Positions 5,349 through 64,000 of a stretch of 64,000 bases of DNA are shown one piece after another. The notes beneath the pieces were generated by a model, which saw only the letters and a list, made by a program, of their open reading frames with translations, was not told the origin of the DNA and searched no databases. The stretch comes from Catellatospora sp. KI3 (GTDB lineage Bacteria > Actinomycetota > Actinomycetes > Mycobacteriales > Micromonosporaceae): contig NZ_JASAMB010000017.1 of NCBI RefSeq assembly GCF_029948125.1, forward strand, positions 124,001 to 188,000. Reading direction: 5' to 3'. The translations under genes and the position numbers were made by a program. Each line of letters begins with the position of its first letter. Positions within the stretch are counted from its first letter, which is position 1.

Positions 5349-6020
5349 CTACATCCGGCTGTTCTTCGAGCCCGACGAGGAGTACTTCGCGACGAAGCTG
5401 TCGGTCGCGTCGCTGGCCGACTCGGCCATGTCGTCGACCTTCGACTTCATGCCGCTGCGGCTGTCCTTGAGCGACGACGACGCCGAGTGCAGCTTGTCGG
5501 CGGTCTTGTCCATCGCCTTGCTGGCGTGGTGGGTCGCCTTGTCGATGGCCGAGTCGGCCTTGCCGGAGATCTTGTCCACCGCCGAGCGGCCCTCGCCCCG
5601 CACCGACTCCAGCGCCTGGCTCGGGTCGTACTCCGACCACTGCTGCTGCTTGCGCCGCTTCACGACCAGCGCGCCCACCGCACCCGCGGCGATGCCCGCC
5701 GCGAGCAGGCCGACGAGCATCTTGGTGTTCCTGTGCGACACCTGCGCCTCCTTCTTCCGCGCCTTGGCCTTCACCTTCTTCGCGGTGGCGGTGGCGTTCG
5801 CCGCGCCCTCCCGGTACGCCGCGATCAGCGGCGCCAGGGTGGACATCGTCGAGTCGATCCCGCCGGAAGTGGCGCGGCGCATCATTCCGGTGGTCGGGCC
5901 CATCTTGGTGCCGACACCGCCGGCGGCGTGCGTCGCCGCCTGCAGGAAATGGTCCCAGCTCTGGCCCATTTCTTCCCGCATGAGCTGCCCGCGCGTCTTG
6001 TGCGCTTTGAAACCGAGCAT
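5349..6020 (-). CDS. Membrane-anchored protein with amphipathic C-terminal repeats, function unknown
   Basis: 223 residues from ATG 6020, preceded by a GGGG purine run. The first 60 residues are rich in Gly and Met (AHAAGGVGTKMGPTTGMMRR). A basic stretch KKVKAKARKKEAQ precedes a single membrane helix, residues about 110-130 (MLVGLLAAGIAAGAVGALVV), followed by VKRRK. The last 85 residues form a heptad-like, Lys/Asp/Ser-rich amphipathic region with repeating units (VDKISGKADSAIDKA, MDKTADKLHSASS, MKSKVDDMAESASD), resembling YtxH-type and LEA-like proteins. This suggests a cytoplasmic tail that lies on a surface or coils. It stands alone, convergent with corA and divergent from the cyclophilin gene. 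No enzyme motif is visible. Confidence 0.7.
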   Translation of the reverse strand: MLGFKAHKTRGQLMREEMGQSWDHFLQAATHAAGGVGTKMGPTTGMMRRATSGGIDSTMSTLAPLIAAYREGAANATATAKKVKAKARKKEAQVSHRNTKMLVGLLAAGIAAGAVGALVVKRRKQQQWSEYDPSQALESVRGEGRSAVDKISGKADSAIDKATHHASKAMDKTADKLHSASSSLKDSRSGMKSKVDDMAESASDATDSFVAKYSSSGSKNSRM

Positions 6021-15289: not shown

Positions 15290-16291
15290 GTGTGGCATGA
15301 CCGAGCGCACCGTGGTCGGGTCATGAGCGTTTCGCCGGTGGAGCGTGCCGTGGAGGCCTTCGCGACCGAGCTGAGCCGGTGGCGCATCGACCGGGGCATG
15401 ACCAAGAAGCAGCTCGCCAGCCGAATGGGCTTCGATCCCTCGTACATCAGCCACATCGAGGGCCGAAGACACAGGCCCACCGAGGACTTCGCGCGCCGGG
15501 CCGAGGCGGTGCTCAACGCCGGCGGCGCGATCTGGCGCCGCTTCCAGGAGTACGAGGAGGCCCGGCAGGCCCGCGGCCCGTCCACGCTGCTCACCCGGGA
15601 GCCGACCGTCCCCACCCAGTGGCTGCCCCCGGGCACCGGCCTGGTGGTGGAGCTGGAGGAGGCGCAGCTCACCTACGACGAGGGCGCGTACCAGGTCGTC
15701 GTTCGCCGGGCCCTCTACAACGCGGGCAACGAGCCGGTCACCCGCTACCTGATCCGGGTGGCCGTCGACCGGTACCCGGGCCAGCCGCAGCGCTCCAACG
15801 CCCACCACCGCACCCACCCGCTCTCCCTCGACGAGCTGGGCCTGGTCGCCTTCTGCGGCGACCCGGGCGTGGCCGAGCCGATGGTGTGGCGGGCCAAGCA
15901 GGACCGGGACGCGTTCAAGGAGATCTGGCTGCTGTTCGAGAACGCCGACGGCCGCTTCCCGCTCTACCCGGGCGAGCGGACCACGGTGGAGTACCGCTAC
16001 CGCGTGGACGAGCTCAAGTGGGGCAGCTGGTTCGAGCGGGCGGTCCGGCTGCCCACCCGGCGGCTGGTGGTGCAGATGCGCTTCCCGACCGGGCTCGACC
16101 CGCAGGTGTGGGGGGTGGAGACGTCGATGGCCGCCGAGGAGGCGCCGTTGCGCACCCCGATCGTGCGGGAGCAGGAGGGGGACCGGGCGGTGTTCACCTG
16201 GCGCACCGAGGACCCGTCCCTGAACGCGCGTTTCCAGTTGCAGTGGCGCTTCCGGGCGGTCGCCTCGGCGCCACCGGCCCTGGTGCCCTGA
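15290..16291 (+). CDS. XRE-family helix-turn-helix protein with C-terminal beta-rich domain
   Basis: 333 residues from GTG 15290, which has GAGGAGGGGG directly upstream; ATG 15323 is in frame but lacks such a site. Residues about 17-85 are a Cro/C1-type HTH (FATELSRWRIDRGMTKKQLA, RMGFDPSYISHIEGRRHRPT). The remaining 230 residues are soluble and strand-rich (LEEAQLTYDEGAYQVVVRRA, ERTTVEYRYRVDELKWGSWF, WGVETSMAAEEAPLRTPIV), perhaps a ligand- or partner-binding part, and show no enzyme motif. Similar HTH proteins are numerous in actinomycetes and some pair with a small DUF397-type partner; none is adjacent here. Its targets are unknown. Confidence 0.85.
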   Translation: MWHDRAHRGRVMSVSPVERAVEAFATELSRWRIDRGMTKKQLASRMGFDPSYISHIEGRRHRPTEDFARRAEAVLNAGGAIWRRFQEYEEARQARGPSTLLTREPTVPTQWLPPGTGLVVELEEAQLTYDEGAYQVVVRRALYNAGNEPVTRYLIRVAVDRYPGQPQRSNAHHRTHPLSLDELGLVAFCGDPGVAEPMVWRAKQDRDAFKEIWLLFENADGRFPLYPGERTTVEYRYRVDELKWGSWFERAVRLPTRRLVVQMRFPTGLDPQVWGVETSMAAEEAPLRTPIVREQEGDRAVFTWRTEDPSLNARFQLQWRFRAVASAPPALVP

Positions 16292-16327
16292 GCCGGCACG
16301 GCGCCGCGGCCGCAGCGGCCGCGGCGC

Positions 16328-17440
16328 TCAGACGTCGCTGAACGCGTCGTACCGTACCCGGGTCTGCGGCACCTGCAGCTGCGTCAGCGTCCGCAGCGTG
16401 CCGCGGACCATGTTCGGCGAGCCGCAGACGAAGAAGTCGTGCTCCAGCCACGGCCCGAACCGCGACAGCGCGTCGGAGACGCTGCCCTCCTCGCCGCCCC
16501 AGCCGGGATCGTCGCTGCACACCGGCACCAGCGACAGCCACGGGTACGCCGCCGCGAGCTGCCGCAGCGACTCCAGGTCGTACAGGTCGTCGCGGTCGCG
16601 GGCGCCGAAGAAGACGTGCACCCAGCGGGTGCGGTTGAACGTGGTCAGCTCCTCCAGCAGCGCCTTGATCGGCGACAGGCCGGTGCCGCCCGCGACGAAG
16701 ACGATGTCGCGGGTGGACCGGCGGTCCAGCACCATCGTGCCCATCGGCGAGGCCAGCCGAAGGATGTCGCCGACCCTGGTACGGCGCACCAGCGCCCCCG
16801 ACACCCAGCCCGCGCCCAGCGCCCGCACGTGGAAGTCCATCGTCCCGTCGGTGCGCGGCGCGTTGGCCACCGAGTACGTCCGCCACACCCGGGGGTGGTG
16901 CTGCGGGCACTCCACCGACAGGTACTGCCCGGCGCGGTACTCCAGCTGCTGCAGCGGCCGCACCGAGAACACGGCGATGTCGCGGCTGCGCCGCTCGTGC
17001 GCCACCACCTCGGCGTGCCACCAGGCCGGGTTGCTGTCGGCGGCGGCCCCGGCCAGCATCTTGCGGGCGATCACGTCGTACGCGTCGCGCCAGGCCTGCT
17101 CGTACTCGTAGGTCCACCCGTCGCGGGCGAAGGTGCGCAGCGACTCCAGCAGGGCGGCGCCGATCACCTCGTACTGCTCCGCCTGCACCTGGAACTTGCG
17201 GTGGTCGCGGCCCAGCGAGCGCAGGTACTCGTCGAAGCGGTCCGGGTCGTCGACGGTCTGCACCGCGCTCACGATGGCGCCGAGCAGCCGCGCCCGCTGC
17301 ACGTCCATCGTCACCGGGAACATCTCCCGGATGTTCGGGTGATTGAGGAAGATCCGAGCGTAGAAGTAGCCGGCCAGTTTGTCCTGCTGCTCCTCGACGA
17401 GAGTCCAGCTCTCTTTCAACAGCCGCTGAAGGTCGCTCAC
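16328..17440 (-). CDS. Flavohaemoglobin-type globin with FAD/NAD oxidoreductase domain
   Basis: 370 residues from GTG 17440. Residues about 1-135 are a globin: Tyr in LAGYFYARIFLNHPNIREMF (helix B/C), and the proximal His in LGRDHRKFQVQAEQYEVIG. An FAD-binding barrel follows, with RVWRTYSVANAPRTDG (R-x-Y-S motif), then the NAD domain with IVFVAGGTGLSPIKALLEEL and a terminal FFVCGSPNMVRGTL. This is the architecture of nitric-oxide dioxygenase (Hmp), which converts NO and oxygen to nitrate with NAD(P)H. It is slightly shorter than enterobacterial Hmp (about 396). It converges with the HTH gene and is divergent from the CPBP gene; no NsrR-type site was recognised. Confidence 0.92.
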   Translation of the reverse strand: MSDLQRLLKESWTLVEEQQDKLAGYFYARIFLNHPNIREMFPVTMDVQRARLLGAIVSAVQTVDDPDRFDEYLRSLGRDHRKFQVQAEQYEVIGAALLESLRTFARDGWTYEYEQAWRDAYDVIARKMLAGAAADSNPAWWHAEVVAHERRSRDIAVFSVRPLQQLEYRAGQYLSVECPQHHPRVWRTYSVANAPRTDGTMDFHVRALGAGWVSGALVRRTRVGDILRLASPMGTMVLDRRSTRDIVFVAGGTGLSPIKALLEELTTFNRTRWVHVFFGARDRDDLYDLESLRQLAAAYPWLSLVPVCSDDPGWGGEEGSVSDALSRFGPWLEHDFFVCGSPNMVRGTLRTLTQLQVPQTRVRYDAFSDV

Positions 17441-62950: not shown

Positions 62951-62988
62951 TCAAGGGCGGGTCTCCCGTAAGGAAGACCCGCCCTTGA
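62951..62988 (-). terminator. Terminator that would follow tRNA-Pro
   Basis: TCAAGGGCGGGTCT and AGACCCGCCCTTGA are perfect complements around CCCGTAAGGA. It is read on the minus strand, followed by GACGCTTTTCG, and lies 13 bases beyond the tRNA-Pro 3' fragment. Confidence 0.8.
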
Positions 62989-63001
62989 ACTGCACTTACT
63001 T

Positions 63002-63045
63002 TGGTCGGGGTAGCCGGATTTGAACCGACGGCCTCTTCGTCCCGA
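63002..63045 (-). other. Attachment site: 3' fragment of tRNA-Pro(CGG)
   Basis: On the minus strand these 44 bases read TCGGGACGAAGAGGCCGTCG and on through T loop GGTTCAAATCC to TACCCCGACCA, the 3' half of an actinobacterial tRNA-Pro(CGG), from the anticodon to the encoded CCA. The 5' half is missing; the sequence beyond 63047 is unrelated. Integrases of actinomycete elements use such tRNA 3' ends as att cores and leave a fragment at the far end of the element. Confidence 0.75.
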
Positions 63046-63657
63046 ATAACGTCCGAGGCGGCGCAGGTGCTGGTGCTAGTCAGTATCCTGCTGGTCAGGG
63101 CGTTGGGTGCTGTTGGCTGACGAGCGTGTAAATCACTGCCAAGAGCAAGATCGTCTCCCGGATCTCTCCCAGCGGACTGCCGCATGGTTTGATCTACATG
63201 CGACGCGACGGCGGTTTGACTGTTGGCCAGCGTAGGGTTGGGGCCGAAGATTCAGGCCCTGCTGTTTCGGACACGTCAGACGCGATCCGTGACCTTGCTA
63301 AGTCCAAATGATCGCGGACAGCTCGCTGCCACGGGTATTGAACAACTGCAACGAGCGTGAGGCCGGGAATCACGCTTAGTGATAGTCAAATCACTGATGG
63401 TTACATGCAATGGCTTGCATTCAAGTTACCCATCTGAGTTTGAGCTAGGTAGCGTTAGCGAACTGGTAGGGTGCTGCCATCGCGACAGAGCGATGTGGAG
63501 TATCACGACTTGGCGATACGTTACATCGTGCCCCAGCGATTCTTGATCCATTACATAACCTACTCTCATCACATCCCCCGTAGTTGGCGCTGCGTGGGAG
63601 ATCGGATGGCAGTAGGGCACGAAGGTCGACGGCTCAAACCCAGCAAAAGGAGTTCAG
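63046..63657. other. AT-richer DNA inside the presumed integrated element, no clear gene
   Basis: About 610 bases with much lower GC than the rest of the window (AT runs such as CATTACATAACC, TGATAGTCAAATC). A 70-residue plus frame at 63471-63683 has no ribosome-binding site and is not supported. Two palindromes are listed separately. Confidence 0.5.
63378..63420. promoter_or_regulatory. Two operator-like palindromes near the element end
   Basis: AGTGAT-AGTCAA-ATCACT (63378-63395) and ATGCAA-TGGC-TTGCAT (63405-63420) are perfect 6-base inverted repeats, 9 bases apart. Repressor, excisionase or integrase arm-site binding is possible; no protein in the window is known to bind them. Confidence 0.45.
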
Positions 63658-64000
63658 GTGACGTGCAAGAAGCGGTGCGCTGACAACCACCCTAACCACA
63701 GAAGCCACACCTCGGAAGACAAGAAGGCGGCTGGCACCAGCGGACTTCCTCACACCGGGAAGGCGCGGGGGGCGTACCGGCTGGACATCCCCCAGCAGAA
63801 ACAGGGGCCGCACAACGGCTCTGCCAAGCGGATGATCTCCGGAGGTCCGGCAGCCAAGCGCCGAGCGCAGCCCTGCCGGCGGTGCGGAGCGCGTCGCAAG
63901 ACGATCATTCCGATCTGGCTGCGTCGGTGGCTGACCAAGCACCAGAAGATGATCAAGCTTGTGACCCCGTTTGTCGTGCTCGTGGGGGCCATCCTGCGGA
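63658..64000 (+). CDS. Hypothetical basic protein of the integrated element, 3' end outside window
   Basis: GTG 63658 has AAAAGGAG at 63645-63652, the best ribosome-binding site in this part. The frame is open to the window edge, 114 codons: MTCKKRCADNHPNHRSHTSE, then a Lys/Arg/His-rich region, QPCRRCGARRKTIIPIWLRR and a hydrophobic helix MIKLVTPFVVLVGAIL. Cys pairs near the start (Cys3, Cys7) and CRRC later could bind metal. Codon use is less GC-biased than that of the chromosome. The family is not recognised. Confidence 0.5.
   Translation, partial: MTCKKRCADNHPNHRSHTSEDKKAAGTSGLPHTGKARGAYRLDIPQQKQGPHNGSAKRMISGGPAAKRRAQPCRRCGARRKTIIPIWLRRWLTKHQKMIKLVTPFVVLVGAILR

Follow-up and report, generated by a model that had tools for sequence, protein, structure and literature searches.

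A tRNA-Pro(CGG) fragment in Catellatospora sp. KI3 as the probable end of an integrated AICE with a LacI-bearing integrase

pSAM2 is an actinomycete integrative and conjugative element (AICE) located at a tRNA-Pro gene. According to the available part of PMC3218068 it replicates by RepSA, whereas the element considered here encodes a Prim-Pol protein and a 525-aa protein without a Pfam match. In the accessible text of PMC3364876, pACPL of Actinoplanes sp. SE50/110 is likewise an AICE of the same family in a proline tRNA gene, but it is 13.6 kb long, carries repSA rather than prim-pol, and has a 21-nt arm repeat unlike the TCTCCC-N5-TCTCCC described below. SLP1-type and other Prim-Pol AICEs resemble the present element in having Prim-Pol followed by a replication gene, an FtsK-type Tra protein and a tyrosine integrase at a tRNA gene; they differ in that the sections available from PMC3218068 mention no LacI-bearing integrase, the term LacI appearing there once, as a gene colour in the legend of a Frankia figure. 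Since AICEs in tRNA-Pro genes are already known, the element belongs to a known kind. The broader interest lies in the LacI-type headpiece found within the catalytic domain of its recombinase, which is kept across the 80 relatives examined (the best 80 of 218).

Two complete AICE-like elements from Micromonosporaceae genomes (G086 and G118) also occupy tRNA-Pro(CGG) and, like the present one, have 45/45 core copies at both ends. They share with it an integrase with a LacI segment (68-69% identical), the replication protein (87-89%), xis, prim-pol and the arm positions. However, these elements measure 14.3 and 14.8 kb, and have no match to the GntR, TraB and defence cargo genes of the present element.

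The locus belongs to Catellatospora sp. KI3 (G000), whose genome is an 8.2-Mb draft in 96 contigs. The window, meaning the whole 64,000-nt stretch analysed, is C9:124001-188000; genes further along contig C9 are given in the coordinates of locus L005, where adding 59999 yields the window position. Near its right-hand edge stands a fragment of tRNA-Pro(CGG) that we read, with a probability of about 95%, as the attachment site at one end of a ~20.1-kb integrated AICE. A sequence-only reading of the window had already taken the fragment for the end of an integrated element, and the comparisons reported here support that interpretation. A tRNA fragment in raw sequence thus correctly predicted a whole mobile element lying beyond both the window and the contig.

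The broken tRNA-Pro copy and its surroundings

The fragment (63002..63046, minus strand) is the 3′ half of a tRNA-Pro(CGG). Its 45 nt run from the CCA, which appears as TGG at 63002-63004, down to the anticodon loop with the anticodon included, and form the predicted att core at the junction of chromosome and element. ARAGORN called no whole tRNA at 63002-63046, in contrast to its tRNA-Pro(cgg) call on contig C16. Sequence comparison showed that the window and the intact tRNA-Pro locus of C16 are identical over exactly 57 nt (62990..63046, minus strand), a stretch that ends in the anticodon loop. The fragment originally described as 44 bases with CCA is therefore real, but it is 45 nt long and the exact match extends over 57. 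A blast comparison of the fragment with C16 gave 93% identity over query positions 44-147 (E 2.5e-35, far above chance). The genome holds one other copy with the fragment's core, at C16:4003-4105, forming part of the intact tRNA-Pro(CGG); the remaining near-copies are a 34-nt match to a tRNA-Pro(TGG) on C48 and a self-match of the hairpin.

That hairpin (62951..62988, minus strand; -37.9 kcal/mol, z -7.95) was equalled in stability by 0 of 200 shuffles. As the initial description had it, this would be the tRNA-Pro gene's native intrinsic terminator, which stayed behind on the side of the chromosome. A similar, element-borne hairpin adjoins the intact tRNA on C16, and the terminators at the two ends of the element are 93% alike. 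The opposite side had rightly been called AT-rich and gene-poor. Here, the putative attP arm region (63047..63657) is mostly non-coding with no gene called, GC content falls to 0.559 (63048-63650) against 0.706 for the whole window, and among open reading frames of at least 80 aa the presumed first gene of the element begins only at 63658. This gene (63658..64000, plus strand; L005:3659-4021) encodes 120 aa without a Pfam match and runs beyond the window to C9:188020. Elsewhere in the window, four tRNA-Ser genes (TGA, GCT, CGA and GGA) lie within 21 kb (12731-33586), together with one tRNA-Arg(ACG).

The intact tRNA-Pro end and the genes between

The sequence-only reading had predicted an intact minus-strand tRNA-Pro(CGG) with the same core to the right of the window, beside integrase and excisionase genes and with the element in between. 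No such intact tRNA was found on the fragment's own contig, C9, whose sequence stops 14.5 kb beyond the right edge of the window. ARAGORN located one on a different contig (C16:4061-4137, minus strand) that shares the core, with genes for an integrase and for an excisionase-like HTH protein directly beside it. The predicted orientation was borne out, and in relatives the two flanks are neighbours around one intact tRNA-Pro.

On the 3′ side of the intact tRNA lie, after the element-borne hairpin, the gene of a 519-aa tyrosine integrase (C16:2402-3961), which ends beside the tRNA, an HTH_17 gene (C16:2021-2374; HTH_17 1.5e-6) that is probably xis-like in function, and the gene of the 525-aa putative replication protein (C16:169-1746). 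An AICE-type xis-int module is therefore present next to the attachment site. At the start of C16, 56 residues are homologous to the C-terminal end of the Prim-Pol protein of G086 and G118. To the right of the tRNA the contig is ordinary chromosome, encoding a 304-aa metallophosphoesterase-like protein, a YqeY-like protein and a penicillin-binding-like protein (names read from the translations).

Just after the 525-aa gene, C16 (C16:1752-1984, L006) and likewise contig C46, described below, carry 8-bp iterons of the sequence GCGGAGAT, which occur on both strands and in tandem triplets and form an array framed by a 33-nt perfect inverted repeat. We consider this array a candidate replication origin. 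In 13 of 16 distinct loci the 525-aa replication gene is followed by tandem 8-bp runs, whose unit varies (AGATGCGG, AGATGCCG, AACTCCGC, AACTCGGC).

On C9, the 120-aa gene is followed by further genes of the element. Genes for an HTH protein and a SecB-like protein (L005:4794-5423 and 5423-5884; SecB 26.6 bits, cut-off 26) are arranged as in toxin-antitoxin-chaperone systems, with no toxin gene recognised at this pair (L005:4794-5884), and are followed by a gene whose 313-aa product matches SRA weakly (L005:6495-7436; E 0.00096, below the curated cut-off). The overlapping genes for RosmerT (the RmrT toxin; L005:7597-8223; PADLOC 4.4e-55) and RosmerA (RmrA, an ImmA/HTH antitoxin; L005:8186-9349; PADLOC 3.4e-147) would constitute a toxin-antitoxin defence pair of the RosmerTA type, which the available part of PMC10440598 describes as a known defence system. 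The element carries defence-like genes into the chromosome of a non-pathogenic soil actinomycete. Minus-strand genes for a HAD hydrolase (L005:9661-10404) and a GntR regulator (L005:10356-11249; GntR 7.3e-19) come next, and several small or membrane-type genes without Pfam matches separate the GntR gene from the transfer genes. These are two adjacent genes that match consecutive parts of a plasmid TraB (L005:15106-15831 and 15853-17190; TraB profile 3e-8 and 3.2e-28). The match to the TraB profile NF041214, at 98.6 bits, is below its curated cut-off of 800; the FtsK/SpoIIIE-type Tra feature of AICEs is nevertheless seen in L005:15853-17190 as a PF01580 match of 25.2 bits (cut-off 24; E 1.3e-5). 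At its very end, C9 encodes the N-terminal 52 residues of a Prim-Pol protein (L005:18377-18532; PF09250 48.6 bits, 1.6e-12), so that the replication module typical of AICEs is represented by a prim-pol gene broken by the contig end and whole in G086.

No exact overlap of 10-199 nt exists between the ends of C9 and C16. The missing middle of prim-pol was estimated from the separation of the matched parts in G086 and G118 as ~546 nt (0.55 kb), which gives an element of ~15,530 + 546 + 4,105 nt with both cores, or ~20.1 kb with one. According to the model, the integrase would bind TCTCCC-N5-TCTCCC arm repeats that flank the core of the circular element and align this core with the tRNA-Pro 3′ half in the chromosome, where strand exchange presumably takes place. 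The element would contribute both a new CCA-bearing 3′ half and a terminator of its own, so that the tRNA gene stays whole at the integrase end; the displaced native 3′ half and terminator would remain at the opposite end, as seen in the window. Excisionase would reverse integration. Copying of the circle would fall to the prim-pol and replication proteins, and transfer of double-stranded DNA into a new hypha to the FtsK-like TraB. The element would be self-transmissible, excising as a circle and passing on by conjugation.

Arm repeats, the site in the genus and the pairing of contigs

A predicted arm-type integrase site, TCTCCC-N5-TCTCCC, lies at 63154..63170 (plus strand) and is the sole match in the window, where 0.03 would be expected. 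G000, G003, G086 and G118 have direct TCTCC repeats 11 nt apart on the integrase side of the core; in G000, G086 and G118 such repeats stand on the far side too. The far-side boxes, counted from the core start, stand at 153/164 in G000 and at 154/165 in both G086 and G118. Among the best 80 of 218 integrase relatives, a looser form of the motif was found at most 220 nt after the integrase gene in 23 of the 31 with a tRNA within 400 nt, against 5 of the 49 without one and 33 of 4,000 windows drawn at random from these loci; it is missing in 8 of the 26 tRNA-Pro(CGG) neighbours of that set, which, like the number of relatives without a nearby tRNA, speaks against the proposed reading. Because the arm site matches, the window end belongs with this integrase type, an assignment for which the missing middle is not needed.

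The site was compared in 10 relatives of the genus Catellatospora (11 genomes including G000). DNA like the right flank on C16 is found in 10/10, and the site is apparently empty in seven (G001, G002, G004, G006, G007, G008 and G009), with one intact tRNA-Pro between the flanks and, after it, a homologue of the C16 right flank that is 85-94% identical. None of 22 element proteins matched the seven empty loci. Matches to the left flank generally cover 56.0-59.2 kb of the window, reaching 60.3 kb in G009 and 62.55 kb in G008. Measured from where the best window match ends, the core is 1.5 kb away in G001, 1.2 in G002, 1.1 in G004, 1.0 in G006, 1.5 in G007 and 1.7 in both G008 and G009; the distance is 4.1 kb in G010 and 10.0 kb in G005. 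A complication is that most relatives lack, at this site, the window DNA from ~59.2 to 62.95 kb; only G008 has a match, which reaches 62551 at 73%. This stretch is variable chromosome or a trace of older events.

The LacI-type integrase occurs in 2/11 genus genomes, G000 and G003. The G003 assembly breaks at the core, one contig ending within it beside the integrase gene (82% identical) and another starting just after. This element was rejected as a template, since its similarity is confined to int (82%), xis (52%) and two left-side genes and does not include the transfer and replication genes. Additional core copies were found in G005 (C17, L054), 6.9 kb from its tRNA, in G007 (L055), as a degenerate 42-nt copy, and in G001, on the 4.4-kb contig C82 (L058) alongside the apparently empty chromosomal site; G010 has 4.1 kb of extra DNA at the site. 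The tRNA-Pro site is a hotspot in the genus. The arm motif is absent at the core copies of G001 (C82) and G005, as expected if other integrases made them. As a separate observation, CCA is not encoded in the intact tRNA-Pro(CGG) of G001, G004, G005, G007, G008 and G010, in which CGG, GGG or CTG replaces TGG; it is encoded in that of G000, G002, G006 and G009, and in three exact core copies on element ends.

The search for the missing middle of prim-pol with the contig ends revealed a second AICE in G000, consisting of C41 (L197) and C46 (L185) and located at tRNA-Arg(CCT). Its replication and transfer genes are nearly the same as those of the tRNA-Pro element and it is broken at the same place, prim-pol. 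The start of C46 resembles C16 (94% over 2.0 kb; 525-aa protein 98%) and the end of C41 resembles C9 (87% over 2.6 kb). Sharing of this module, 87-94% identical around prim-pol, explains why the contigs break inside the gene. The C46 integrase (C46:2384-3883) differs from that of C16, has no LacI match and adjoins an intact tRNA-Arg(CCT), while C41 matches the 3′ half of tRNA-Arg(CCT) exactly over 44 nt.

No single contig spans the element. The same likenesses would allow C9 to continue into C46 instead, halves of two AICEs having been mispaired, and assembly alone does not decide the matter. However, C9 holds a half of tRNA-Pro and C16 the intact tRNA-Pro, just as, for tRNA-Arg(CCT), 44 identical bases are on C41 and the intact gene is on C46. 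Barring recombination in prim-pol, only the pairing of C9 with C16 and of C41 with C46 gives matching cores, and we regard a mispairing as most improbable. What joins C9 to C16 is thus not one continuous sequence but the shared core, the empty site, the agreement of the arm sites and the fact that the second element pairs independently.

A different kind of doubt concerns the origin of the fragment itself. In a draft of so many contigs, the 3′ half might be an assembly duplicate of the intact tRNA, or arise by chance, but it lies 14.5 kb inside its contig and the sequences on both sides of the shared stretch differ, making an artefact practically negligible. The fragment could instead be the relic of an older or different element, with a tandem array between C9 and C16 and the C16 integrase coming from another member. 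The available part of PMC9513070 documents AICEs accreting at a single tRNA gene, which would fit the hotspot, the extra core copies in G005, G007 and G001, and the likeness of the two terminators, as repeated turnover might leave. Nevertheless, the arm repeat by the fragment is spaced and placed as in the two complete elements with the same integrase type and target, whereas the copies in G001 and G005 lack it, and the C9 and C16 ends both fall in prim-pol, so that one AICE suffices. Accretion therefore seems quite improbable, and the fragment is best read as one end of a single integrated AICE.

A LacI-type segment within the integrase

Pfam places a LacI match (PF00356, 7.2e-16) at residues 314-356 of the integrase, inside the catalytic domain of the tyrosine recombinase. 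There is no uninterrupted Phage_integrase domain above the Pfam cut-off, PF00589 reaching 19 bits against 27.1. Among the 218 relatives confirmed in the genome collection, the best 80 were analysed. The LacI segment is kept in 80/80 of these, the lowest identity being 60% over 48 residues, and the block 321-340 with the recognition helix has a mean identity of 80% against 67% for the whole protein. Residues R222, K259, H432, R435, H458 and Y467, which we take to be the R-K-H-R-H-Y catalytic set of tyrosine recombinases, are likewise kept in 80/80. All 25 relatives scanned match both Pfam LacI and, at E <= 0.01, PF00589. The tRNA near the integrase gene in the best 80 of 218 is Pro(CGG) in 26, Val(GAC) in three, Val(TAC) in one and Pro(GGG) in one, with none within 400 bp in 49, a spread that raised the idea of a target-site switch. 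Matches at 1e-60 or better occur in 33/300 genomes of the family sample, and none at E <= 1e-20 in 50,697 phage records.

A model of the homologous integrase of C. coxensis (pLDDT 69.6, pTM 0.49) was compared by Foldseek. Its best matching folds are the Tn1549 (E 4.9e-7) and lambda (1.1e-6) integrases, at modest scores (TM 0.30 and 0.25 by query length), from which the present protein differs in having the LacI headpiece as an insert. A further match is to the PurR/LacI headpiece, to which the model aligns at E 0.017 with 49% identity over 47 columns.

We expect that the LacI headpiece acts as a further DNA-binding contact. Tentatively, and with the odds somewhat against it, these proteins may constitute a large overlooked actinobacterial subfamily in which the usual arm-binding and core-binding domains are supplemented by a third DNA-binding module, a working LacI headpiece within the catalytic domain that would recognise a separate operator, in the attachment region or the xis-int promoter, placing repressor and recombinase in one protein. 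If so, such an integrase would couple expression with integration and excision. Alternatively, the segment would be a structural leftover without DNA binding in an ordinary AICE integrase. No binding site could be named, and the model is of low confidence where the headpiece leads into the catalytic C-terminus (residues 352-359 and 363-427 with pLDDT <50), but the retention of the segment in every one of the best 80 of 218, the raised identity of block 321-340 and the LacI match in all 25 relatives scanned argue against a leftover, which we consider rather unlikely.

A literature search that left out most subscription journals found no published description of a LacI-bearing integrase. The G000 integrase is absent from a genome-wide PF00589 scan at 0.001; the same scan, with that miss, gave no match in the window, where the fragment had been called the only sign of recent transfer. 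Two matching plasmid records annotate the integrase gene as a LacI-family regulator. Because the profile misses the G000 integrase and these plasmid genes are annotated in this way, surveys relying on PF00589 may undercount such elements.
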